From the NCBI GenBank assembly GCA_030657355.1, contig CP131057.1, forward strand, positions 393,501-457,500: a stretch of 64,000 nucleotides of DNA. The letters run 5' to 3'. A program made the position numbers and the translations under genes. Below the pieces are notes generated by a model, which ran no database searches, was not told where the DNA came from, and worked only from the letters and a program-made list of their open reading frames with translations. Shown here one piece after another: positions 5,349 through 19,184 of this stretch (positions are counted from its first letter, which is position 1; every line of letters begins with the position of its first letter). Source of the stretch: Radicibacter daui (GTDB lineage Bacteria > Pseudomonadota > Alphaproteobacteria > Radicibacterales > Radicibacteraceae).

Positions 5349-5618
5349 GTCGGGTCGCTCGCCAGTAACCGACCCGGATACTCGCCCCACTTCCGGCGGC
5401 TTTTGTTACCGTCATAATGAAGGGACAGCGAACGAGGTGCGAGGGGTCGTTTTGACGCTTCGTCTTCGCCAGCCTGTTCAACGGCACTTCATCGACGACC
5501 AGGGGAGCCCCGGGGGCAGTCGGCAAGGGAAATCCGAAAGCTGTCGATCGAGTTTTGCGACACTCTCTTTCTTGCATGGCATCCGGCCGTGTGTGAATTG
5601 GTAAAAAGGGGCGCTACC
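5349..5618. other. Intergenic region at the left border of the RiPP-like cluster
   Basis: No convincing gene lies between the terminator and the first oxygenase. Frames across it lack ribosome binding sites and conserved motifs. I looked here for a second precursor peptide and found none I could support. It must contain the promoter of the oxygenase operon, but I see no consensus -35/-10 pair. Confidence 0.4.
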
Positions 5619-6308
5619 ATGGCTCTTGCGGGGTCGCCCCGCCTCCTGGTTGAACGGAACGTTATAAAAATGACTGCTGCCATGCATGCGTTCGAGGACC
5701 TGCCGCCCTGTCATCGCATAGCCGGGCTTATGGGGCCTGCCATGGTGGAGCGGTTGCTGGAACTGGCATTGACGCAAGAAAGGATGTTCGTGCCGACCAA
5801 GGTCGGCAGCGGCACTGCGGGGGTGGTAAATCCGGTCATCCGCTCCTCGCTGCTGCTGCGTGATTTCGGCGGGCTGCGCCAGGAACTGGAAGCTTGTTTT
5901 ACCGCTGTTCTGGACGAGGCGATCCGCCTGCTGCGCCTTTCTCCCTTCCGCCTGGACCGTCTGGAGCTGGAACTGGTCGCGCATAATGAGGGGGCCTTCT
6001 ACAGCGAACATATCGATACCTTCACGGCGCAGCCCGACGCCCACCGTTCCGACAGGGTGCTGACTGGTGTTTACTACTTCCACCGCCAGCCCAAGGCCTT
6101 CAGCGGCGGTGATCTGCGGCTGCACGCCATAGCCCCGGCCGCAGATGGGGAACGCCGCTTTATCGACATCCCGCCCGATCTGGACACACTCGTGCTGTTC
6201 CCGTCCTGGGTTCCCCACGAGGTGAGGCAGGTCTCCTGCCCTTCCGGCTCCTTCGCCGACAGCCGCTTCGCCCTCAGTTGCTGGTACCGAAGCCGGCGGG
6301 GGGCTTGA
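5619..6308 (+). CDS. 2OG-Fe(II) oxygenase (prolyl-hydroxylase-like fold)
   Basis: 229 aa from ATG 5619, supported by AAAGGGG about 6 nt upstream; other in-frame starts are GTG 5589 and ATG 5670. The iron triad is readable: H131 and D133 in YSEHIDTF, then H200 in PSWVPHEV. R216 in DSRFAL is placed to bind 2-oxoglutarate. The GVYYFHRQPKAFSGGDLRL segment is the usual beta strand between the motifs of P4H-like dioxygenases. Such enzymes hydroxylate amino-acid side chains or small molecules. The next gene, 4 nt downstream, encodes a second member. Its placement suggests tailoring of the putative RiPP, which is inference. Confidence 0.85.
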   Translation: MALAGSPRLLVERNVIKMTAAMHAFEDLPPCHRIAGLMGPAMVERLLELALTQERMFVPTKVGSGTAGVVNPVIRSSLLLRDFGGLRQELEACFTAVLDEAIRLLRLSPFRLDRLELELVAHNEGAFYSEHIDTFTAQPDAHRSDRVLTGVYYFHRQPKAFSGGDLRLHAIAPAADGERRFIDIPPDLDTLVLFPSWVPHEVRQVSCPSGSFADSRFALSCWYRSRRGA

Positions 6309-6312
6309 CCCT

Positions 6313-7164
6313 ATGACCATAGCTGTTCCCACCGCCTTCATCCGCAATCCTGCAACCGATGTCCGGATGGTGGCGAGCGACGCGGATGGGCCCCGGCAGA
6401 TCGTCGTCAGCGCCTATTCGGTACTGAAGGGCTTCAGCGAGACCGTATTCGACCGGACCGAGGACGCTGCCTTTGCGGCGGTGCTCGACCTGGCAGCTGG
6501 CCGGGAAGATGTACTGGACGGGCTTTCGCCCGATATCGGCCTGGCGCTCTGGAGCAGTGGCCTTATCATCCTGCCGCCAGAGAAGGCTGCCCCCTTCGCG
6601 CCGCCGCGCTTCACGGCCTCTCCCGCCGCCTTCGCCGCCGACGGATTTGCCCTGCTCCAGGACTGCCTGACGCCGACCATCGCCGATATCCTGGCCGCCT
6701 ATTATCGGGAGCAGGTGCAAAGCGGCTCCGCCTGGTTGACCACGGACGGCATAGACCGCTGGCAACTGCACAATGACCCGGCAGGCAGGGTAGTGCAGCG
6801 TGCCCTGCTGCCGGCGGTGGAGGCGCTGGTGGACGTACCCGTCATGCCCAGCTACAGCTTTGCTTCCCTCTACCGCGAAGGCGCCTCATTGCCGGTCCAT
6901 CGGGACCGTGAGCAGTGCGAATACACCCTGTCCCTGCTGATCGACCATCAGCCCCTTCCGGCTGACGGGATCTCCCCCTGGGCCATCCAGGTCCATGCAC
7001 GGCCCGGCGCGGAGCCCGTCGATTGTTACCAGAGCCTGCGCGGCGGCATCCTGTTCCGCGGCCGTGACCTGCCCCATGGCCGCAAGGCGCTGGCGGCGGA
7101 CGAGACGTGCTGGACGCTGCTGGTTCATTACGTGGATGCCGGTTTCGAGGGGCCGCTGGATTGA
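6313..7164 (+). CDS. 2OG-Fe(II) oxygenase-like protein with an extra N-terminal domain
   Basis: 283 aa. The C-terminal half carries a dioxygenase core: H196-x-D198 in LPVHRDREQCEYTL and H255 in RDLPHGRKAL. The N-terminal ~100 residues (VLKGFSETVFDRTEDAAFAA, ending in LWSSGLIILPPE) do not belong to the oxygenase core. They look like a small beta/alpha winged-helix domain and faintly resemble RiPP recognition elements. The gene starts 4 nt after the first oxygenase. Likely role: hydroxylation of a peptide or small molecule in the same pathway; the substrate is not known. Confidence 0.72.
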   Translation: MTIAVPTAFIRNPATDVRMVASDADGPRQIVVSAYSVLKGFSETVFDRTEDAAFAAVLDLAAGREDVLDGLSPDIGLALWSSGLIILPPEKAAPFAPPRFTASPAAFAADGFALLQDCLTPTIADILAAYYREQVQSGSAWLTTDGIDRWQLHNDPAGRVVQRALLPAVEALVDVPVMPSYSFASLYREGASLPVHRDREQCEYTLSLLIDHQPLPADGISPWAIQVHARPGAEPVDCYQSLRGGILFRGRDLPHGRKALAADETCWTLLVHYVDAGFEGPLD

Positions 7165-7232
7165 CCGGCAGCCGGCGATGGCCTGGCGGCGGCGAGGCCT
7201 GGGAACGGCTGCTCAAGGGGGGCTTCCCCTTC

Positions 7233-8396
7233 ATGCCGTGGCCGGGACGCCGGCCGATGCGCCGTTTGCGCCATCTGGCACGGCGGGCTCTGTTCGCCCA
7301 CCAGCCTCCCTGGCGGCGAGGGTTGTTGAGGGCGGCCATGATGCTGGCCTGGCCTGTCGGCGCGGTGTGGGAGACCGGGCGTTACCTGCGCCGGACGCCG
7401 GAGGCGGATCGACCCGCGCGGTTGATGGGCTGGGCATTGCGTGCCGGCCATATGCTGGCGCTGGCCCTGGTCGACAATGTGCCGCCTCGCAGTTATGTCG
7501 CCTACCGTTTGCATGTTCCGCACCGACGCTTCCGGATCGGAGCCTCCTTCTATGGGCAAGAGGTCCAGCTGTTGACCTCCCTCCTGAACCGGCTGAATGG
7601 TGCGGTCGAAGGTGATGTGCAGGACAAGGCCCGGTTTGCCGACCTTTGCCACACCCGGGGCCTGCCCTGCATTCCCACCCTCGCCGTATTCCAGGAGGAG
7701 TCCCAGTCCATACCATCAATGCCCTTCCTGCCAGGCGCCCCTGATATCTGGGTCAAGGATCTGGCCGGCTATCAGGGATCGGGCGCGGCCCGCTGGGTAC
7801 GGGAAGGGGATGCCTATCGCCATGCCTGGCAGGGCGACCTGTGCAGCCTTTCGGAGCTGGTGGAGCAATGGCGCCGGCACAGTTGCATCATCCAGCCCTG
7901 CCTGGGTAACCACCCCTCCCTGGAGGCGTTGTCGGATGGTTCGCTGGCGGTTTTCCGTGTGATTACCGGGATCGATCGAGCAGGCCATGTGGTCGTGGTC
8001 GATGCCCTGGCCCAGTTTCCCTGTGGCGGTTGGGGGGAGCAGCAGATATTCGCGGGAGTAGGGGCGGCGGGTGACATTCTTTCCCCCCATCTGTGGGGGC
8101 TCCATCCGGTTACGCAGCATCCCGACACCGGGGCAAATCTTGTGGGGGTAAAGGTTCCCTTCTGGCCGGAGGCTCTGAATCTCGTTGTTCGTGCCCATGG
8201 CGAGGTGCCGGAGTTCTCCCGCTTCGTCTTTCTGGGCTGGGACGTCGCTCTCACCGCACAGGGGGCGCTGCTGATTGAAACCAATGCCGGCTGGGGCGGG
8301 CTCAACCATCAACTGGGGGAGGGCATCCCGCTGGGCCTTACGGCCCTACCGGGCATCGCCCTTGATCATCTTGAGGGGCACGCCCCGTGCGGCTGA
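7233..8396 (+). CDS. ATP-grasp protein of the sugar-transfer-associated type
   Basis: 387 aa from ATG 7233, preceded by AAGGGGGG at about 10 nt. A TTG at 7161 overlapping the previous stop would add 24 residues. The N-terminal ~120 residues are basic with a hydrophobic stretch (GLLRAAMMLAWPVGAV). The rest fits the ATPgrasp_ST family (PF14397): DKARFADLC, WVKDLAGYQGSGAARW as the nucleotide-binding Lys/Gly loop, FRVITGID, and near the C-terminus LLIETNAGWGGLNHQL with the metal-binding E and N. ATP-grasp enzymes join carboxylates to amines via acyl phosphates. The position just before the cyclase-like gene (10-bp overlap) points to the same pathway. Confidence 0.72.
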   Translation: MPWPGRRPMRRLRHLARRALFAHQPPWRRGLLRAAMMLAWPVGAVWETGRYLRRTPEADRPARLMGWALRAGHMLALALVDNVPPRSYVAYRLHVPHRRFRIGASFYGQEVQLLTSLLNRLNGAVEGDVQDKARFADLCHTRGLPCIPTLAVFQEESQSIPSMPFLPGAPDIWVKDLAGYQGSGAARWVREGDAYRHAWQGDLCSLSELVEQWRRHSCIIQPCLGNHPSLEALSDGSLAVFRVITGIDRAGHVVVVDALAQFPCGGWGEQQIFAGVGAAGDILSPHLWGLHPVTQHPDTGANLVGVKVPFWPEALNLVVRAHGEVPEFSRFVFLGWDVALTAQGALLIETNAGWGGLNHQLGEGIPLGLTALPGIALDHLEGHAPCG

Positions 8397-10258
8397 TCGG
8401 CGGGTTCCTGCATCTGGACGGAAGGCCGGCCGAGGCGAGCCGACTTCTTGCCATGGCGGCGGCCATGACCCCTTCCGCGAGCGGACCCGGATCGCCCCCC
8501 CGGATCGTCTCTCATGTCGAGGGGCCCGTCGCCCTGCTAACCCTGGATTTTACTTCCGGCACGGCAGAGGAAGGTTCTGCGCCAGGCGGAGACGATCTGG
8601 TACTGGCCGCGGACATCCGGCTGGACGAACCCGATCAGGCGCGGAATGAGGCCGGACTGGCCACCCTGCTGACAGAGGCGGGGGAGAGCGGGCTGAGGCG
8701 GCTGGCGGGCGACTTCGCCTTTGCTGCCTGGAACAGGCGGGATCGAACCCTCCTCTGTGCCCGTGACGGTTTTGGCGTGCGGCCCTTCTTCTTCGCCCAT
8801 CGCCCGGATGATCTGTTCGTCTTTGCCTCGCTGCCACGCGGGTTATTTGCCACCGGCCTGATCAAGCGATCGGTCGATCCGGATTATCTGGTAAGTGAAC
8901 TGCTGTTCCAGTTCGACGGGCCGGAACGGTCACTGTTCAAAAGGGTGGAGCGGTTGCCCCCCGGTGGCTGGTTGAGGCTGGCGCCGGGCGCCAGAATCCA
9001 CTCAGGCGTTCACTGGCGCCCGGATTCCGCCATGGCCGGGTCGCGGCGCATTGGCCCCCGGGATGCCGCGGCCGAGCTGTCGTGGCTGACCCAACAGGCC
9101 GTGCGGCGGCGCCTGCCCGCGGCGGGGCCCGTCGCCGCCCATCTCAGCGGCGGGATGGATTCCAGCGCCATCACGATTGTGGCGGCACGCGCCCTGTGCC
9201 CGGCAGGCCGCGAAGTTCTGGCCTATTCCCACAGCCCCGGCCCCTTCAGTTCCTATCGCTTCGGGGGAAATGGACCCTATATCGCGCCCGTGCTGCAGCA
9301 GGAGCCGGATGTTAACTGGCAGCCGGTGCAGATCGGCGATCCGGCTGCCTTTGTGCTGCCGGAGATGGATCCGGACCAGCTTTTTCCGCTGGATGCTTCC
9401 CATCGTGAGAGCCGTGTTTTTGCCGATGCGGCGGCCCGGGGAGCTTCCATGCTGCTATCGGGCTGGGGCGGGGACGAAGGAGCAAGCTACAGGGGGGGCG
9501 GTGTCCTGATGGAGGCCCTGCTGAGAGGACACTGGCTTTATCTGGCGGCGGAGCTGCGCGCCGCCGGGGCAATCCGCCCGGCACTGGGCGGCCTCGCGCC
9601 CCTGCTGCTCCCCGAGACTGTTCGTACAGTCGCACGCCGTCTTGCGGGGCGGCCGTCCTCTTCTCCGGGCATAGCCGTTCTGGCGGCGGGTCTGATGCGT
9701 GCGGAGGCGGTCGCCGGACGTGTCCTGTCCCAGCCAGTAAAGCCCCTTGAAGCCCGGCGGATGCGCCACTCACTGCTGACAGGCCATGGCCTGACCCGGC
9801 GGGTGGAGCAATGGGCCTTGCTGGGAGCCCGCTACGGCATGGCTGCCGGGTTCCCGATGCTGGATCGCCGGCTGGTGGAGTTTGCCCTGTCGCTGCCCAG
9901 CTGGCTTTTCGTGAGCGGGGGCTGGTCGCGCCGGGTATTCCGCGACGCCATGGAAGGTGTGCTGCCCGAAGAACTGCGCTGGAAACCGACGAAAGTCGAC
10001 CTGATGGCCGAGGATCCGGTCCATGTAGCGGCGCAGCGTCCGCTGCTTGCCAGACGGCTGGCGGCTTTGCGGGAACGGGAAGTCATTGCCGGCCTGTTCG
10101 ATCTGGATGCCGTGGCGGCGTGGCTGGCTGACTTGCCTTCGGCGGATATCCTGGCCCGCACCATCGAGACCGGCCAAGGGGACTGGCCCGCCGTGGAACG
10201 GGCCGGCAGCCTCATGCGGGCGTTCCGGGTCATGGCTTATCTGGAACAGCACGGGTGA
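8387..10258 (+). CDS. Asparagine-synthetase-like protein, putative lasso peptide cyclase
   Basis: 623 aa, GTG start with GAGGGG 8 nt upstream, overlapping the ATP-grasp gene by 10 bp. The N-terminal half is a class II glutamine-amidotransferase fold, but the catalytic Cys expected at residue 2 is missing (it begins M-R-L-I-G-G), so it should not release ammonia from glutamine. The C-terminal half has the ATP-pyrophosphatase loop SGGMDS at residues 254-259 and SGWGGDEGASYRGGG. A dead glutaminase joined to an active synthetase domain is the signature of lasso macrolactam synthetases (McjC type) and beta-lactam synthetases. The nearby RRE, HPr-kinase-like protein and precursor-like peptide favour the lasso reading. 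It would adenylate an Asp/Glu side chain and join it to the core N-terminus. Confidence 0.8.
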   Translation: MRLIGGFLHLDGRPAEASRLLAMAAAMTPSASGPGSPPRIVSHVEGPVALLTLDFTSGTAEEGSAPGGDDLVLAADIRLDEPDQARNEAGLATLLTEAGESGLRRLAGDFAFAAWNRRDRTLLCARDGFGVRPFFFAHRPDDLFVFASLPRGLFATGLIKRSVDPDYLVSELLFQFDGPERSLFKRVERLPPGGWLRLAPGARIHSGVHWRPDSAMAGSRRIGPRDAAAELSWLTQQAVRRRLPAAGPVAAHLSGGMDSSAITIVAARALCPAGREVLAYSHSPGPFSSYRFGGNGPYIAPVLQQEPDVNWQPVQIGDPAAFVLPEMDPDQLFPLDASHRESRVFADAAARGASMLLSGWGGDEGASYRGGGVLMEALLRGHWLYLAAELRAAGAIRPALGGLAPLLLPETVRTVARRLAGRPSSSPGIAVLAAGLMRAEAVAGRVLSQPVKPLEARRMRHSLLTGHGLTRRVEQWALLGARYGMAAGFPMLDRRLVEFALSLPSWLFVSGGWSRRVFRDAMEGVLPEELRWKPTKVDLMAEDPVHVAAQRPLLARRLAALREREVIAGLFDLDAVAAWLADLPSADILARTIETGQGDWPAVERAGSLMRAFRVMAYLEQHG

Positions 10259-10340
10259 CAGGGATCACCGTGAGCCACAGGTCGGCAAATTGAATTCTTG
10301 GCGTTGGAAGCGGCGTTCGCGCGGACTTTAATCTGCAAAC

Positions 10341-10637
10341 CTATGCCGTCGGTGCGCCGGACGGGGCAAGCAGGCCACGCTCGCGCAGCGCCGACAGAAA
10401 TTCCTGCACTTCGGCCCGGGCTTGATCCGCATCCACCGCATACTCGGCGGTCAGGCTTGCCACCAGCCCCTCCACGCTCACCGGCTGGGCCAGCAATTCC
10501 CAGATGCGGCTACCGACATCGTTGAGGTTGAAATATTTGCCCGCCGCCACACTCATCATAAGCAACTCCTCACCGACAGCAGCGGTAAGCACCTCGCCGG
10601 TGCGGTGCACCAGATCGGACCTTGCACCTTCATTCAT
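10341..10637 (-). CDS. PqqD-family RiPP recognition element (lasso B1-like)
   Basis: 98 aa from ATG 10637, which has AGGAAGG 8 nt upstream; an in-frame upstream ATG at 10691 lacks such a site. The protein is a single PqqD-like winged helix: VLTAAVGEELLMMSVAAGKYFNLN, then VGSRIWELLAQP, then ADQARAEVQEFLSALRERGLL. This is the standard pattern of stand-alone B1 proteins that bind the leader of a lasso precursor and deliver it to the enzymes. It is the last gene of the minus-strand group, 67 nt after the sulfotransferase. Confidence 0.88.
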   Translation of the reverse strand: MNEGARSDLVHRTGEVLTAAVGEELLMMSVAAGKYFNLNDVGSRIWELLAQPVSVEGLVASLTAEYAVDADQARAEVQEFLSALRERGLLAPSGAPTA

Positions 10638-10704
10638 AGCCGGTTCCTTCCTGTGGCGGCCCATTTGATTGCCGGGAGTGACGTCCTGCATTTTTCCCGG
10701 TTGT

Positions 10705-11544
10705 TCACAGATACCCGAACTCAGCCATCACCGCACCATGCGCAGCTTCAATGGCGGATGCCTGGTCAGGGGTCAGGGCATCGCGCCAGCTGCCGACCCG
10801 GCCGGCGCGGAAGAAAGGCGCCGTCGATTCCAGCCGGCGCTCGCGAAAACCCTTCTCCGTCTCCTGGCGTTGCAGCTCGCTGAAATCGGATTGGCGGACG
10901 GCCCGCGCCAGTTCATCCGGTGTCGCTTCCAGTCCCAGAAAAGTGGCGGCGCGGCCAAAGAAGCCCGCCGTATCGGCGCGCAGGTCCTCGTAGCGCAGCA
11001 CATGTACCGGTACGTCACGCTGTGCGGTCCAGCTGCGCACATGGCTGCTCCAGTCCAGAAGCGGCTGGGAAAGCTGTTCATGGTGCGGTTTGTTCCCGCC
11101 CATGCGCGTACTGCCAGACAGCATCTGCTCGACGACCCTTCCGATCGGCAGGCCGGTATGGAAGGCCAGGGACACGGCAACATCGCGGGGGTCCCGAAGG
11201 ATGTAGACTGCCGCGCGGGCGGGGCGCCCCAAGACAGGGCTGCCATTGGCAAGATGGCAATAAGCCTCGTGCAGCTTGATGAAGACGTCGAGATCGGCCG
11301 CTTCCCGCCAGGCTTCCTCCATCAGGGCCGGGCGTATCCTGTCGCATTCGTCCCTAGTGAGCAGAAAAGTGTCGACCAGGGTCAGCTCTTCGGCCACCTG
11401 CCTGGTCACCAGGCTAAGCGTGGCCAGGCCGATATCGTTGATATCTTGCGGATCCGACCGACGGCACAGCAGATTGGCCAGTAGCAGGCGCAGCCAGGTG
11501 TTTCCCGATTTGGGATAGGAGACCAGCCAGACCGGCCCGGACAT
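10705..11544 (-). CDS. Sulfotransferase domain protein
   Basis: 279 aa. The 5'-phosphosulfate loop is at residues 9-17 (SYPKSGNTW) and the 3'-phosphate motif is ILRDPRDVAVSL near residue 115-125. RYEDLRADTAGFFGRAATFLGL and a C-terminal GSWRDALTPDQ motif complete the PAPS-dependent sulfotransferase fold. Its ATG overlaps the stop of the HPr-kinase-like gene by 1 nt (TAATG), so the two are translationally coupled. Homologous genes occur in some lasso peptide clusters. Here it may sulfate the peptide or another small molecule, which is inference. Confidence 0.88.
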   Translation of the reverse strand: MSGPVWLVSYPKSGNTWLRLLLANLLCRRSDPQDINDIGLATLSLVTRQVAEELTLVDTFLLTRDECDRIRPALMEEAWREAADLDVFIKLHEAYCHLANGSPVLGRPARAAVYILRDPRDVAVSLAFHTGLPIGRVVEQMLSGSTRMGGNKPHHEQLSQPLLDWSSHVRSWTAQRDVPVHVLRYEDLRADTAGFFGRAATFLGLEATPDELARAVRQSDFSELQRQETEKGFRERRLESTAPFFRAGRVGSWRDALTPDQASAIEAAHGAVMAEFGYL

Positions 11545-12467
11545 TACCCGGCCCTCGTCATCGCATCCAGAACCAGGGTAGCGCTGGCGTCCAGATGTTC
11601 CAGACCGCGTGTGCGTTCCAGCCGGAAGACGGGTACCCGGTCCAGCAGCGCCGCGATCTGGAGGAACAGCAGCGGGTCGTGGCCCATGCAGCGGGCAAGG
11701 GAGGGGCGATAGACTTCCCTCCGCAGCAGGGAGGCGGCATCCGCCAATGCAAGGCGCTCAATTCCGGGCGGGCCCGGCGGGAGCGTGTTCTCCCGTGTTC
11801 GCAGCAGGATCACGGCTGCCAGGGGGCACGCGTCCCCTGCGCGTTCCACGGGCGACGACGGAGCAACATGGAACTTGCGCATGTGGCTACGAATGGGCGC
11901 TCCTTGCCGCTCGGCCAGGGTCAGATGCTCGATGGCATCGGCCCATAACCGGTGCTGGCGTCCGTCCGGCCAGACCACAGGAGTACCATCGGGGCCATCG
12001 GTGCGGATGGCGGCGATATCGTCGCCCACAAAATCGGCGCCAGCCTGACACAAAGCAGCCGACAGGGTCGATTTTCCCGCTCCTGTTGGCCCGCACAGGG
12101 TAATGGCCTGGCCTTTCCAGGCCACCGTGGCGGCATGCAGCGCCAGCAACCGGCGCTGATGCAGGATGGCGGCAAAGCCAGTCGACAGAATGAAGGGGGC
12201 GATGTCAGTCTCGGTGACGGCGCTCAAGGGCTGGGCTACGATTTCCCGTCCGTCATGGACCATCAGCCGGACAACGCCGGGCACTTCGAGATAGAAACGC
12301 CGTCCGACCAGCCGCCAGGCCGTTCCCACGTAGTCTGGCGTGTTCGGGTCATCAGGAATTTCCCCGATGCTCACACTCACGTCTGGGTCCGGCACGGGAG
12401 GAACCGCGAGCCCGCCCGGCAGGTTCAAGGTGGCAGCGACCGACAGGCCACAGATCGAATAATACAC
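11544..12467 (-). CDS. HPr-kinase-like protein (putative peptide kinase)
   Basis: 307 aa, GTG start. Walker A GPTGAGKST is at residues 126-134, preceded by LLALHAATVAWKGQAITL and followed by GADFVGDDIAAI, the layout of the HprK/P catalytic domain without the usual N-terminal regulatory domain. In lasso clusters of the paeninodin type, such kinases phosphorylate the C-terminal Ser of the precursor. The gene lies 21 nt downstream of a short peptide gene that ends in Ser, which fits. Hexuronate or HPr regulation is unlikely because no PTS genes are near. Confidence 0.82.
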   Translation of the reverse strand: MYYSICGLSVAATLNLPGGLAVPPVPDPDVSVSIGEIPDDPNTPDYVGTAWRLVGRRFYLEVPGVVRLMVHDGREIVAQPLSAVTETDIAPFILSTGFAAILHQRRLLALHAATVAWKGQAITLCGPTGAGKSTLSAALCQAGADFVGDDIAAIRTDGPDGTPVVWPDGRQHRLWADAIEHLTLAERQGAPIRSHMRKFHVAPSSPVERAGDACPLAAVILLRTRENTLPPGPPGIERLALADAASLLRREVYRPSLARCMGHDPLLFLQIAALLDRVPVFRLERTRGLEHLDASATLVLDAMTRAG

Positions 12468-12488
12468 CGGACCGCAATCTGGAAGATG

Positions 12489-12656
12489 TCAGGAACCGGT
12501 GGCCGGTGAAGCTTCGGTCGGATTGGCGAAGGCTTTGCCCTCGGTCAGGCTGCGGATGCTCTGGTCGCGGATCAAGGGCTTGTTCCAGACCTTCATCGCA
12601 GGTTTGTAGCCTGCCTTCTCGGCGTCGGGCTGTTCGTCGCTGTTTGTCGGGTTCAT
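12489..12656 (-). CDS. Putative lasso-type RiPP precursor peptide (55 aa)
   Basis: Found by reading the minus strand: ATG 12656, or an in-frame ATG 12665 that adds M-Q-D; stop TGA at 12489. The leader has a W-N-K-P-L-I motif (residues 24-29) like the Y/W-x-x-P-x-L element bound by RRE proteins, and ends in R-S-L-T-E. Thr is then at -2, and the predicted core is GKAFANPTEASPATGS: Gly1 could form an isopeptide bond with Glu9 (9-residue ring), and the C-terminal residue is Ser, a site phosphorylated by HPr-like kinases in related clusters. The short tail (ASPATGS) has no bulky plug residue, so threading is uncertain. It is first in the minus-strand operon, 21 nt before the kinase-like gene. Confidence 0.68.
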   Translation of the reverse strand: MNPTNSDEQPDAEKAGYKPAMKVWNKPLIRDQSIRSLTEGKAFANPTEASPATGS

Positions 12657-12701
12657 GTCTTGCATCTCGATCCGGTAGGCTTATTCCAGACATATACAGT
12701 A

Positions 12702-12710
12702 ACTATAGCA
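12702..12710 (-). promoter_or_regulatory. Candidate extended -10 promoter of the precursor operon
   Basis: On the minus strand TGCTATAGT matches an extended -10 (TGnTATAaT), 37-46 nt upstream of the two possible precursor starts. No clear -35 box is visible. Confidence 0.35.
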
Positions 12711-13038
12711 AGACCTGGCTGTACTGATAAGTGCTTATGCGCAACAAGAGATCGCGGCGACGCTACGGCCAACTCAGCTACAGCGCTCGTTACCCTTCTT
12801 GAGGATGCCCAGTGCTGCCTCTTCCATGCGATTCCAGCCTGGTTGCGGCGGAACCTTCCTTAAAGATGGAGGGGCCACACCGCACACAGGCCGGAATATG
12901 GCTTTCCCGTTATTCAGCCTCTGGCCTGAACGTCCGGGTTTTCGTCATCGTGCAGACCAGGCAGCGCGGCCGGCTGGATCAGCGCCGGTTCGCGACGGTT
13001 CTGTTTTTTTGCCGGGCAAAGGGAGAAAAGGGTCAACC
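12711..13038. other. Intergenic region, no gene recognised
   Basis: This stretch between the RiPP precursor and the DUF1479 gene has only short frames without ribosome binding sites. I searched it for the missing leader peptidase (Cys-His-Asp transglutaminase-like) and saw nothing. It may contain decayed sequence at the right border of the cluster. Confidence 0.4.
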
Positions 13039-14289
13039 TTACCAGGCCTCAAACCCCATCTGCTTGCGCCCGAGCGGCGTCAGGTCGGCTTCCCGCGCGC
13101 GACCGTCAAAACCGATCTCGTAGTTCTCCGCGGCAAAGTCCGGCGCGCTTTGGCCTTGCAGGAAATGCGGGCGCTGTTTTTCCAGATAGGCGGCATTCTT
13201 TCCGCACCAGGGCGCCGCGCCGATATAGATGACATTGCTGTAGCCCTTGCCGTCATGCCGGTCTTCGACGGCATGCACCACGTCGCTGTGCCACCACACC
13301 GTGTCACCGGGCTCTACCCGCGGGATGGGGGTAAGGGCCGGCAGCAGCAGGCTGTGCCATTCGGCATTGGCGGAAAGGGCGCGGCCGGGTTCGGCACCGC
13401 ACAGGCTTTCTTCCGGCACGTCGCTGAGCAGCGGGCGCAGCAGCATGTAGGCGATGGCGTTCGCGATGGGTAGCAGCTGGAGCGTGCCGTCGCCCGGCCC
13501 CTGCGCCGTCAGCGCCGTCCAGCCCTGATAGGTGCGGAACATGCTGCACACGGCGGGGGAGGGAATTTCGGATGTCTCCGTGCGCCAGGCGGCATCGAAC
13601 GGATCATAGTCCCGCCAGTCGCCCGAAAAGACATGGCGGTAGACCTGCCGATACCCCTCGTCGATCCAGCGCTCGACGGAGCCGCCATCCATGTGCGGGG
13701 AAAGGCCGAGTGTGGCATCGCCCGGTTCACGCCGCCGGATGCGGTCAGCATAGGTGCATTCACGGTCGGGGATGAAATAGCTCTGCCCGCCCGGCCCCTG
13801 ATGGTGCCAGAGCCCGTTGAGGAAAGCGCGGGTGCGCGCCAGTTCCTCACCCTGCCGTGCCTGCATCTGCGGTTTTGACCAGTAGATGCCAAAAATCTGC
13901 GGCCGGCCGGCCTTCAGCTTGCTGAAATATTTGTCGAGATCAGGGTCAACCTTCTGCTCGCCGTAGCGGTTGCGGGTCAGATACTCGCCGATCTCCTCAT
14001 TCCAGCAGCCGGCCTGCTCCTTCGAGTAGACGCCGCGCACCACGGCCGCGCCGCGACGCCGTATCAGCGCCTCCTCGGCCGGGGTAATGCGCCCGGCGGC
14101 GATATCGCTATAGGCGATTTCCGGGATCACCGGCTGCCCGGCTTCGCGGGCGGCGACGATCTGCGCCACTTCGCTGCGGAAGTGCTCTTCCATCCCGGCA
14201 AAGCGTCCGGCCAGGTCCGGCAGCCCTGCACGCAGGCGCTTCTTGGCATCCCGGATGGCGGCCGGGAGGTCCTTCACGATGAGGCTCAT
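13039..14289 (-). CDS. DUF1479 family protein (YbiU-like, probable non-haem iron dioxygenase fold)
   Basis: 416 aa from ATG 14289, chosen over an upstream in-frame start because GAGGAAA lies 8 nt before it. The sequence follows the DUF1479/YbiU family: ALIRRRGAAVVRGVYSKEQA, LSPHMDGGSVERW and VEPGDTVWWHSDVVHAVED. H-x-D in SPHMDGG and the late H in DVVHAVED fit the iron triad of the phytanoyl-CoA/2OG dioxygenase fold. The natural substrate of this family is not established. It stands alone between the RiPP-like cluster and the uronate locus and could belong to either or neither. Confidence 0.87.
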   Translation of the reverse strand: MSLIVKDLPAAIRDAKKRLRAGLPDLAGRFAGMEEHFRSEVAQIVAAREAGQPVIPEIAYSDIAAGRITPAEEALIRRRGAAVVRGVYSKEQAGCWNEEIGEYLTRNRYGEQKVDPDLDKYFSKLKAGRPQIFGIYWSKPQMQARQGEELARTRAFLNGLWHHQGPGGQSYFIPDRECTYADRIRRREPGDATLGLSPHMDGGSVERWIDEGYRQVYRHVFSGDWRDYDPFDAAWRTETSEIPSPAVCSMFRTYQGWTALTAQGPGDGTLQLLPIANAIAYMLLRPLLSDVPEESLCGAEPGRALSANAEWHSLLLPALTPIPRVEPGDTVWWHSDVVHAVEDRHDGKGYSNVIYIGAAPWCGKNAAYLEKQRPHFLQGQSAPDFAAENYEIGFDGRAREADLTPLGRKQMGFEAW

Positions 14290-16247: not shown

Positions 16248-17234
16248 ATGTTTCAGAATAAAGGGTTTGCTGTCGCCGCTTTCGTGGCTGCCAGCATGGT
16301 GGCCGGTGCTGCTGCGGCCGCCGACAACATCGTGCTGCGCTCGTCTGACACCCATCCCGACGGTTACCCGACTGTCGAGGCGGTGAAATATATGGGCGAG
16401 CTGCTCAAGGAACGCACCAAGGGTCATCTCTCCATCGATGTCTATCACTCCGCCCAGCTGGGTGAGGAGAAGGACACCATCGAGCAAACCCAGGCCGGTG
16501 TGCTTGACCTCAACCGCGTATCCATGGGCCCGTTCAACGGCATCGTGCCGGAGACGGCCATTCCGTCGCTGCCTTACATCTTCCGCTCGACCGAGCACAT
16601 GCATCATGTGATGGATGGCCCGATCGGCGAGAGCATCCTCAAGGCTTTCGAGCCGCATGGCCTCGTCGGCCTGGCTTTCTATGACAGCGGTTCGCGTTCT
16701 TTCTACAACCGCATCAAGCCGATCAAGTCAATCGAGGACCTCAAGGGCATGAAGTTCCGCGTTATCCAGTCCGACGTGTTCGTCGACATGGTGAACGCTC
16801 TCGGCGCCAACGCCACGCCGATGCCCTACGGCGAAGTCTACTCCGCCCTGCAGACCGGCGTTATCGACGGCGCCGAGAACAACTGGCCGAGCTTCGAGAG
16901 CTCCAAGCATTATGAAGTGGCCAAGTACTACACCCTCGACCAGCACCAGAGCGTGCCGGAAGTGCTGGTGATGTCGAAGATCGTCTGGGACAAGCTTTCG
17001 GATGACGATCATGCCGCCATCCGCCAGGCCGCCAAGGACAGTGTCGGCAAGATGCGCGAGCTGTGGGAAGCGGCGGAAGCCAAGTCCAAGAAGATCGTCG
17101 AGGATGCCGGCGTCCAGGTGGTCTCCGACATCGACAAGAAGCCGTTCATCGATGCCATGAAGCCGGTCTATGAGAAGTACGCAACCACACCGGCTCTCAA
17201 GAAACTGATCGCCGACATCCAGGCGACCCAGTAA
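16248..17234 (+). CDS. TRAP transporter substrate-binding protein (DctP family)
   Basis: 328 aa with a signal peptide (residues 1-24, [19 protein letters not shown]). The DctP signature is clear: [38 protein letters not shown] with the carboxylate-binding Arg, and [26 protein letters not shown] proteins of this type bind organic or sugar acids in the periplasm. The neighbouring uxaC and kdu genes indicate hexuronates or unsaturated uronates. GGGAGG lies upstream of the ATG. Confidence 0.94.
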
Positions 17235-17307
17235 CAACCCGCAAAAACTGCTGTTGTGCGGCGCGGGGGACGGACCCCCGTGCCGCCTTCCCTGGGGAGG
17301 GAAAGAA

Positions 17308-17895
17308 GTGAGTGAGTTTATCGTGTGGGCGGACCGGTGGCTCCGGCGCCTGAGCACACTTGCCCTGTGGATCAGCGGGGCCGGGCTTGTGCTGATGACT
17401 GTCATCATTGCCTGGCAGGTGTTCTCCCGCTTCGTTCTGAATGACTCCCCGAGCTGGACCGAAGCCTCCTCCGTCCTGCTGATGGGCTGGTTTATCTTCC
17501 TCGGCGCGGCGGTTGGTGTGCGCGAGCGCACCCATCTCGGCTTCGACGTGCTGCTCTATTTCATGCCGCCGGGCGCCAAGCAGATTTTCCGCACCATTTC
17601 CGACCTTGTCGTGTTCGCCTTCGGCATCGGCATGATTATCTACGGCACGAAGCTGTCGTTGCTGACCTGGAACACCGTCATGCCGGCGCTAAAATGGCCC
17701 GGCGGCCTTGCATTCTTCCCCGTGATCGGGGGAGGCGTTCTTGTCGTGCTCTTCACGCTTGAACGCATGGTTGGGCGCCTTGCCGGCCTGCCGGTCGATG
17801 AAAGCCCCGAGCAGACCACCGAGCACCTCATCGAGGCGGAAGGTACCGGCCACGACACGGCCACTTCCGCGCGCAGCACCGCTGTCGGAGCCTGA
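17308..17895 (+). CDS. TRAP transporter small permease (DctQ family)
   Basis: 195 aa from GTG 17308, chosen because GGGAGGGAAAG precedes it; no ATG is near. Four predicted membrane helices, including STLALWISGAGLVLMTVIIAWQVFSRF (with the DctQ W-Q-V-F-S-R-F pattern) and ASSVLLMGWFIFLGAAVGV followed by RERTHLGFDVL. Partner of the downstream DctM; together they form the membrane part of the uronate TRAP transporter. Confidence 0.92.
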   Translation: MSEFIVWADRWLRRLSTLALWISGAGLVLMTVIIAWQVFSRFVLNDSPSWTEASSVLLMGWFIFLGAAVGVRERTHLGFDVLLYFMPPGAKQIFRTISDLVVFAFGIGMIIYGTKLSLLTWNTVMPALKWPGGLAFFPVIGGGVLVVLFTLERMVGRLAGLPVDESPEQTTEHLIEAEGTGHDTATSARSTAVGA

Positions 17896-17903
17896 GTGAA
17901 AAA

Positions 17904-19184
17904 ATGACCCTTATCATTCTCTTCGGCGTGTTCGTGGCACTGCTGCTGATCGGCACTCCCATCGCCTTCTGTCTCGGCGTCGCCAGCTTCGCGACCGTGC
18001 TTTATATGGGGCTGCCGCCCATCGTGGTGTTCCAGCGCCTCAACTCCGGCGTCAGCGTCTTTTCGCTGATGGCTATTCCCTTCTTCATCTTCGCCGGTGA
18101 CCTGATGGTGCGCGGCGGCATCGCCGCACGCCTAGTCGCGCTGGCAGGCGCGCTGGTCGGCCACTTCAAGGGTGGCCTCGGACAGGTGAATATCGCGGCT
18201 TCCACCATGTTTGGTGGCATCTCCGGCTCGGCCGTGGCCGATGCCTCGGCTGTCGGCGGCCTGATGATCCCGCAGATGAAGGCGCGTGGCTATGACGTCG
18301 ACTATGCGGTCAACGTCACTTCCATCGGCGCCATCATCGCGCTGATGATCCCGCCCTCGCACAACATGATCATCTATTCGATCTCGGCGGGCGGGCGCAT
18401 TTCGATTGCCGACCTCTTCACCGCAGGCGTCATTCCGGGCTTCCTGCTGGCGATCAGCCTGATGGTCACGGCCTACATTGTGGCCTCGCGCCGCGGTTAC
18501 CCGACAGAGCCGTTCCCCGGCGGGCGCATGCTGCTGACGCTGCTGTTCAGTGCCATTCCTGGCCTCATCCTCATCGGCATCATCTTTGGCGGCGTGCGTT
18601 CCGGTGTCTTCACCGCGACCGAAAGCTCCTGCATCGCCATCGTCTACGCGTTTCTCGTCACGCTCGTCGTCTATCGCTCGATGAGTTTCAAGGATTTCGT
18701 CGAGGCGACGCAGGGTGCGGTGCGCACCACCGCCATGGTGCTGATGGTCATCGGCTGCTCGGCCACCTTCGGCTGGCTGCTCGCCTATCTGCGCGTGCCG
18801 GCTGCCCTGGTCACCTTCCTGCAATCGGTCTCCGACAATCCTTACGTCATCCTGCTGCTGATCAATGTGATGCTGCTGGTGCTCGGCACTTTCATGGATA
18901 TGTCGCCGCTCATCATCATCACCACGCCGATCTTCCTGCCGGTGGTACAGGCCTACGGCATCGACCCGGTGCATTTCGGCGTCATCCTCATCCTAAATCT
19001 CGGTATCGGTCTCTGCACGCCGCCTGTGGGTGCCGTGCTGTTCGTCGGCTGTGCGCTTGCCAGGATATCCATCTGGCAAGCCATGCGAACGATCTGGCCG
19101 ATGTATGGCGCAGCCATCGTGGCGCTTGGTATCGTGACCTACGTGCCGGCGGTCTCGCTCTGGCTGCCAAGCCTCTTCCACTAA
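17904..19184 (+). CDS. TRAP transporter large permease (DctM family)
   Basis: 426 aa, the usual DctM length with about 12 membrane segments. Family hallmarks: IPFFIFAGDLMVRGGIA, ASTMFGGISGSAVADASAVGG and IPPSHNMIIYS in the first half, FMDMSPLIIITTPIFLPV and NLGIGLCTPPVGAVLFVG in the second. It is the ion-coupled translocator of the tripartite transporter. Its stop codon lies within the ribosome binding site region of the GntR gene. Confidence 0.95.
   Translation: MTLIILFGVFVALLLIGTPIAFCLGVASFATVLYMGLPPIVVFQRLNSGVSVFSLMAIPFFIFAGDLMVRGGIAARLVALAGALVGHFKGGLGQVNIAASTMFGGISGSAVADASAVGGLMIPQMKARGYDVDYAVNVTSIGAIIALMIPPSHNMIIYSISAGGRISIADLFTAGVIPGFLLAISLMVTAYIVASRRGYPTEPFPGGRMLLTLLFSAIPGLILIGIIFGGVRSGVFTATESSCIAIVYAFLVTLVVYRSMSFKDFVEATQGAVRTTAMVLMVIGCSATFGWLLAYLRVPAALVTFLQSVSDNPYVILLLINVMLLVLGTFMDMSPLIIITTPIFLPVVQAYGIDPVHFGVILILNLGIGLCTPPVGAVLFVGCALARISIWQAMRTIWPMYGAAIVALGIVTYVPAVSLWLPSLFH

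Follow-up and report, generated by a model that had tools for sequence, protein, structure and literature searches.

The DNA analysed here is a stretch of 64,000 nucleotides from Radicibacter daui (the window; positions 393501-457500 of the 802 kb contig C2, one of two contigs in a 5.06 Mb genome). It carries a cluster of eight genes that, with high confidence, encodes a member of the lasso family of ribosomally synthesized and post-translationally modified peptides (RiPPs). We consider it likely that this is a kinase-type lasso peptide cluster, of the kind described for paeninodin and SyanK, to which further tailoring enzymes have been added. Several bacterial classes and one other phylum have related gene sets, and the locus would be a variant within a known family of natural products, not a system of a new kind. 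The eight genes, named in an original prediction made from the sequence, are all intact and lie at or near the predicted positions, as judged by translation, profile searches and homologues, and they are indeed split between two convergent transcription units. Profile matches bear out the predicted PqqD-like RiPP recognition element (B1), the sulfotransferase and the ATP-grasp protein. The combination of genes had been described as unrecognized; the set of tailoring enzymes is unusual but not unique, as close versions are found in other proteobacterial classes. Of the hydroxyl, sulfate and phosphate groups that had been suggested for the product, the phosphate is better founded than was claimed, and the other two are suggested by the intact enzymes.

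The precursor gene fits a lasso peptide, as predicted. The peptide has the proposed 55 residues if translation begins at an internal ATG, and otherwise has 58. The leader (...MKVWNKPLIRDQSIRSLTE) is followed by a proposed core, GKAFANPTEASPATGS, and the junction between them (SLTE/GKAFANPTE) places Thr at leader position -2, Gly at core position 1 and Glu at core position 9; the core ends in Ser16. Together with a W..P.[LI] motif in the leader, these features are consistent with a lasso precursor. For the unmodified core, a Gly1-Glu9 macrolactam has a computed mass of 1486.705 Da, in agreement with the earlier hand sum of about 1486.7 Da. The same grammar recurs across the precursors found, with a W (rarely Y) ..P.[LIV] leader motif and, in most of them, Thr as the last leader residue but one, 13-14 residues past the W, and a first core acid at position 8 or 9. 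Ser is the last residue of every precursor found, a count that is partly biased because some searches accepted only Ser, or one of a few listed residues, at the C terminus. Eight of the eight precursors found without a filter on the last residue (the window, L005, L006, L007, L052, L054 and two in L055) also end in Ser.

Relatives were identified by one cyclase scan of species genomes, and maps of twelve further regions were drawn. The scan yielded clusters in an alphaproteobacterium (L005), a member of the Burkholderiales (L006), Methylobacter (L007) and a member of the Bryobacteraceae in the Acidobacteriota (L008). L005, L006 and L007 each have all four of the kinase, sulfotransferase, PqqD and cyclase genes, and their relative order is unchanged. 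In L008 a contig end cuts the sulfotransferase gene, and a B2 peptidase gene lies between the PqqD and kinase genes. The L005 precursor is 55% identical to that in the window (E 4.7e-17), the L006 and L007 versions are recognizable, and a more divergent counterpart occurs in the acidobacterial genome. Thus, in the comparison of gene order that the original prediction had proposed, the peptide is kept beside the same enzymes, the loss of which would have counted against the prediction. The arrangement is not due to chance, as L005, L006 and L007 all keep the precursor among the same neighbours. An ATP-grasp gene is common to the window, L005, L006, L007 and L052. A nucleotidyltransferase gene occurs beside L006, L019 and L059, and is absent at the window cluster.

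The predicted glutaminase-dead asparagine synthetase begins MRLIGGF and has no Cys2. In a 51-row maximum-likelihood tree, in which characterized cyclases such as McjC are not included, a 100/100 split separates 24 sequences, nearly all starting with MCG, from 27 that do not. The latter side contains the window gene, all PqqD- or kinase-linked cyclases and two MTALA-type cyclases; rows L070, L074 and L080 begin with MCG despite their label and the start of L086 is misplaced, neither of which affects the split. The window cyclase is sister to that of L005, in a clade that also includes L050, L051, L006, L007, L008 and L052. The cyclase is phylogenetically distinct from AsnB; a grouping with AsnB would, by the original prediction, have refuted the lasso reading. 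For the PqqD-like protein, the best NCBIfam model is NF033536, the lasso PqqD family, with a score of 78.5 bits, 1.5 below its cut-off of 80.

The HPr-kinase-like protein has only weak Pfam and NCBIfam matches, but contains the P-loop, His and Asp-Asp residues. The P-loop, His111, Lys132 and Asp149-Asp150 are invariant in an alignment of the kinase with its relatives, and the His-Lys-Asp-Asp residues correspond to the catalytic residues reported for lasso kinases (PMC9266682, PMC10368454). A kinase profile compared with the PDB matched HprK through the P-loop region only. Characterized lasso kinases act on linear precursors and phosphorylate their C-terminal Ser, in some cases adding several phosphates (PMC8498205; PMC9266682), with BsfK, which modifies Ser3, as a characterized exception (PMC10368454). 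We assign the cluster to the kinase type because the precursor ends in Ser, the residue that these enzymes phosphorylate, and we predict with moderate confidence a phosphate on Ser16. A profile search of 385 genomes of the class found kinase-type genes in 19, at 43 loci. Searches of plasmids recovered only distant relatives of the kinase, in Thalassobaculum, Tistrella and Priestia.

The PKSGNTW and RDPRD stretches of the sulfotransferase family bind the sulfate donor, and the window enzyme has both; the PKSGNTW loop and RDPRDVA are conserved across the family. The gene accompanies the kinase at most loci, including those that have no oxygenase, which makes a hydroxylation-dependent target unlikely. 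The first of the two predicted 2-oxoglutarate (2OG)-Fe(II) oxygenases is identified by its match to PF13640, and has homologues of 51-65% identity in the L005, L006, L050 and L051 clusters. The second has no Pfam match by itself, a PDB sequence search with its profile found nothing, and it is recognized by predicted fold alone. An AlphaFold model based on nine homologues has a predicted local distance difference test score (pLDDT) of 90.3 (37 with two sequences), and residues 94-283 match SnoN and PHD2/prolyl-4-hydroxylases in the PDB with Z scores of 17-19 (best 19.1). His196-x-Asp198, His255 and Arg257 are invariant across homologues. The protein is predicted to be composed of an N-terminal domain of about 100 residues and a prolyl-hydroxylase-like catalytic domain. 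Oxygenase 2 is common to L005 and L051, and in L050 all that is left of it is the N-terminal part plus a short stretch at the C terminus. The sulfate and hydroxyl groups, and the positions they might occupy, are predicted with lower confidence from the intact enzymes.

Several further observations concern these enzymes. Beside L050, in genome G054, a homologue of oxygenase 2 without the catalytic domain is encoded (L120 1414-1791), with the N-terminal domain of about 100 residues in frame; this suggests that the domain may have a function of its own. An E-x-x-P motif is present in the cores of the window, L005, L006, L050 and L051a, and absent from that of L007, which is without oxygenase 1. 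We do not claim a link between oxygenase 1 and this motif, which was noticed post hoc and amounts to about one independent contrast. Past the collar genes described below, L007 encodes what by eye is an aspartyl-hydroxylase-type oxygenase, and a second sulfotransferase-like gene (16527-18249). Pro is missing from the L007 core, in which Asp and Asn do occur.

The ATP-grasp protein bears on whether the product is threaded. Among the profiles searched it matches the ATPgrasp_ST family alone, and a PDB sequence search with its profile found no chain. Lys199 and Glu373-Thr-Asn375 are invariant in the window, L005, L006 and L007, and because these residues are kept the protein is probably active. 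Its gene lies between an oxygenase gene and the cyclase gene and is conserved in L005, L006, L007 and L052. At each of the five loci with an ATP-grasp gene, the second or third core residue is Lys, which is only a lead. Potentially, the cyclase and the ATP-grasp enzyme could each form amide or ester links, as in graspetides, so that the product would be a macrolactam or cross-linked peptide that is not threaded and whose ring closure is non-classical; the shifted acid in L007 would be compatible with this. However, ATPgrasp_ST proteins are also found outside lasso-type clusters, and L050 and L051, which are without the ATP-grasp gene, share the precursor grammar. The core Lys likewise occurs in L050, L051a and L008, where no close ATP-grasp homologue was found nearby. 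We therefore regard a non-threaded product as unlikely.

Under the kinase-type lasso reading, we hypothesize that the W..P.[LI] motif of the leader is the site at which the PqqD-like B1 protein binds the precursor, and that tailoring takes place on the still-linear peptide. The HprK-like kinase would phosphorylate the C-terminal Ser16, the sulfotransferase would sulfate a hydroxyl group, and the 2OG oxygenases would hydroxylate core residues, the best guesses being Pro7 and/or Pro12. A transglutaminase-like B2 peptidase encoded elsewhere in the genome could cut after Thr41-Glu42, after which the asparagine-synthetase-like enzyme would form a macrolactam between Gly1 and Glu9 that encircles the tail. 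Secretion of the product would then fall to an ABC exporter whose gene likewise lies outside the cluster.

Some observations weigh against this reading. Neither a B2 peptidase nor an exporter is encoded within the window cluster, and the same is true of L005, the closest relative, in which two B2 genes are found elsewhere in the genome. The NCBIfam lasso cyclase model NF033535 does not discriminate, as ordinary Cys2 AsnB-like proteins score equally high; the match was dropped as support for this reason, and the tree was used instead. The ring position is not universal: the acid of the L007 core is at position 10/11 (the first at 10) and, in the wider family, the L019 core has no acid at positions 7-9. 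In L006, the core would start with an unusual Lys1. L019 is a cluster on a Thalassobaculum plasmid with an annotated lasso B2 and PqqD, and its peptide (12983-13210) has the post-leader sequence GPSTFSSGQAAHVS, without a ring-forming acid.

The absence of a local B2 and exporter would also be expected of a degenerate or orphan cluster that has lost both and from which no mature product is made any more. This is quite improbable, as all eight genes are intact and retain their active-site residues, on which ground decay of the cluster was rejected, and as L005, with the same local absence, has kept its precursor along with the gene set. The genome also encodes one lasso-type B2 and one lasso-type exporter. 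The sole PF13471 (B2) gene is at C2:630033, far from the cluster on the same replicon; in its product, Cys77 and His112 are retained, and a Thalassobaculum protein annotated as lasso B2 shares 52% identity with it. Within the genome, the exporter at C2:248698 clearly matches cluster-linked exporters best (34-45% identity). In the L005 genome, a 50%-identical B2 gene sits next to an exporter gene, away from the cluster, and in L006, L007, L008, L050 and L051 a B2 gene adjoins the cluster. Plasmid searches for B2 recovered distant relatives only, in Azospirillum and Thalassobaculum.

A second kinase-type cluster is present in the same genome (C1:1.283-1.291 Mb; L009 4497-10612). It encodes three collar proteins, a GNAT protein, a cyclase, a sulfotransferase, a kinase, a PqqD protein and a 270-residue protein of unknown function, and has its own precursor, with RRAWRKPTLDVLPVSATA in the leader and GGSGSTCETTSVSNASQSS in the core. 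It looks complete and is also without a B2 of its own, which fits enzymes shared in trans and argues further against degeneration. The simplest reading is that the two clusters would share one B2 and one exporter. This suggests that a pathway lacking core genes can use a shared peptidase and exporter, and genome mining centred on clusters would miss such pathways.

Table 1. Features of the predicted lasso peptide cluster (positions within the window)
Feature	Position	Strand	Basis
2OG-Fe(II) oxygenase 1	5619-6308	+	PF13640, 3.7e-16
2OG-Fe(II) oxygenase 2	6313-7164	+	Predicted fold, homologue alignment
ATP-grasp protein, ATPgrasp_ST family	7161-8396	+	PF14397, 3.2e-28
Asparagine-synthetase-like macrolactam cyclase (C), no Cys2	8387-10258	+	Sequence, tree
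PqqD-like RiPP recognition element (B1)	10341-10637 (start at 10637)	-	PF05402, 2.8e-21
3'-Phosphoadenosine-5'-phosphosulfate (PAPS) sulfotransferase (S)	10705-11544	-	PF00685, 3e-26
HprK-like lasso-peptide kinase (K)	11544-12467	-	P-loop and His-Lys-Asp-Asp residues
Precursor peptide, 58 aa	12489-12665	-	Conservation beside enzymes; internal ATG at 12656 gives 55 aa
Proposed 16-residue core	12492-12539	-	Thr(-2) and uniform distance from W to T
Possible extended -10 promoter ahead of precursor	12702-12730	-	Promoter search of 5400-12900

The promoter-like site ahead of the precursor gene is the only one in the region searched, a number at chance level, and is a weak candidate.

The cluster shares with those of paeninodin (PadeA/K/C/B1/B2/D of Paenibacillus dendritiformis) and SyanA/SyanK (Sphingobium yanoikuyae) a precursor with C-terminal Ser, a His-Lys-Asp-Asp kinase, a split B1 and a cyclase, the likeness to SyanK being by description, not by sequence. 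Unlike these systems, the window adds the sulfotransferase, the ATP-grasp protein and two 2OG oxygenases, is organized in two convergent units and has its B2 and exporter encoded elsewhere. Paeninodin-like clusters of Firmicutes with a putative sulfotransferase or nucleotidyltransferase have been described (PMC8498205). A sulfotransferase beside a kinase-bearing lasso cluster is thus shared with the window, but those clusters belong to another phylum, and neither an ATP-grasp protein nor a pair of 2OG oxygenases is described there. In the canucin A cluster, the 2OG oxygenase CanE hydroxylates the lasso precursor with help from B1, at a C-terminal Asp (PMC9266682). The window oxygenases resemble CanE in type, whereas the window core has no Asp and there are two different 2OG enzymes. 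A table of Pontixanthobacter genes (Table 2 of PMC10040529) lists a B2, a nucleotidyltransferase, sulfotransferases, an aspartyl beta-hydroxylase, PqqD and an asparagine synthase-related protein under consecutive cluster numbers. These genes appear to form a tailored lasso cluster of the same kind, unrecognized there and discussed as linked to halotolerance; it differs from the window in having an Asp hydroxylase, and no ATP-grasp protein is listed. The gene set of the window locus is compact and conserved, its precursor is clear and a mass before tailoring is predicted for it, and the relatives with and without each tailoring gene are natural comparisons.

Kinase loci of this type are recurrently accompanied by phage-tail-collar genes (PF07484), which lie within 10 kb of a kinase gene at 9 of the 43 loci, in 8 of the 19 genomes. 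Random placement of the kinase loci gives an expectation of about 0.29 and a maximum of 4 in 20,000 simulations, with collar gene clusters counted by hand and a null model that ignores island effects. The collar genes come in threes at eight of the nine loci, the other being a single gene in G098 C1. Examples are found in L006 (14741-16608), L007 (14546-16277), L009 (3335-5036) and L098 (8963-10689), and collar genes are also near kinase loci in G016, G046, G054, G098, G167, G274 and G358. L006, L007 and L098, a second cluster in the L005 genome, are three cases beyond the nine. In the literature searched, we found no paper that links a lasso peptide with a tail collar. The neighbourhood is an unexplained link that may hint at the role of the peptides.

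It is highly improbable that the enzymes instead modify a leader-bearing peptide or a cell-surface partner such as the collar proteins, with no free antimicrobial or signal produced: collar triplets do recur beside related clusters, but neither the window cluster nor L005 has neighbouring collar genes, and the precursor's core and C-terminal Ser are conserved in their own right. A bolder conjecture, to which we give a low probability, is that the clusters represent a lasso family spread over several proteobacterial classes, in which peptides would carry phosphate, sulfate and hydroxyproline as well as an ATP-grasp-added group on the core Lys, and would in many lineages be associated with three collar proteins in a secreted, fibre-like assembly.

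Two other regions combine collar triplets with lasso-like precursors. In L096 (9232-9465), a precursor with the leader sequence WQRPQLTVLDVTDNTI and core AGGPVVVNDGLGNAS directly adjoins the triplet, and no match to the reference-set cyclases or kinases occurs within its 20-kb stretch. In L055 (13540-14310), two similar precursors (WQAPVIELFDVSEAE... and WQAPVIEVFDVTEAE...), whose leaders are without Thr at -2, are encoded in tandem beside a collar triplet.

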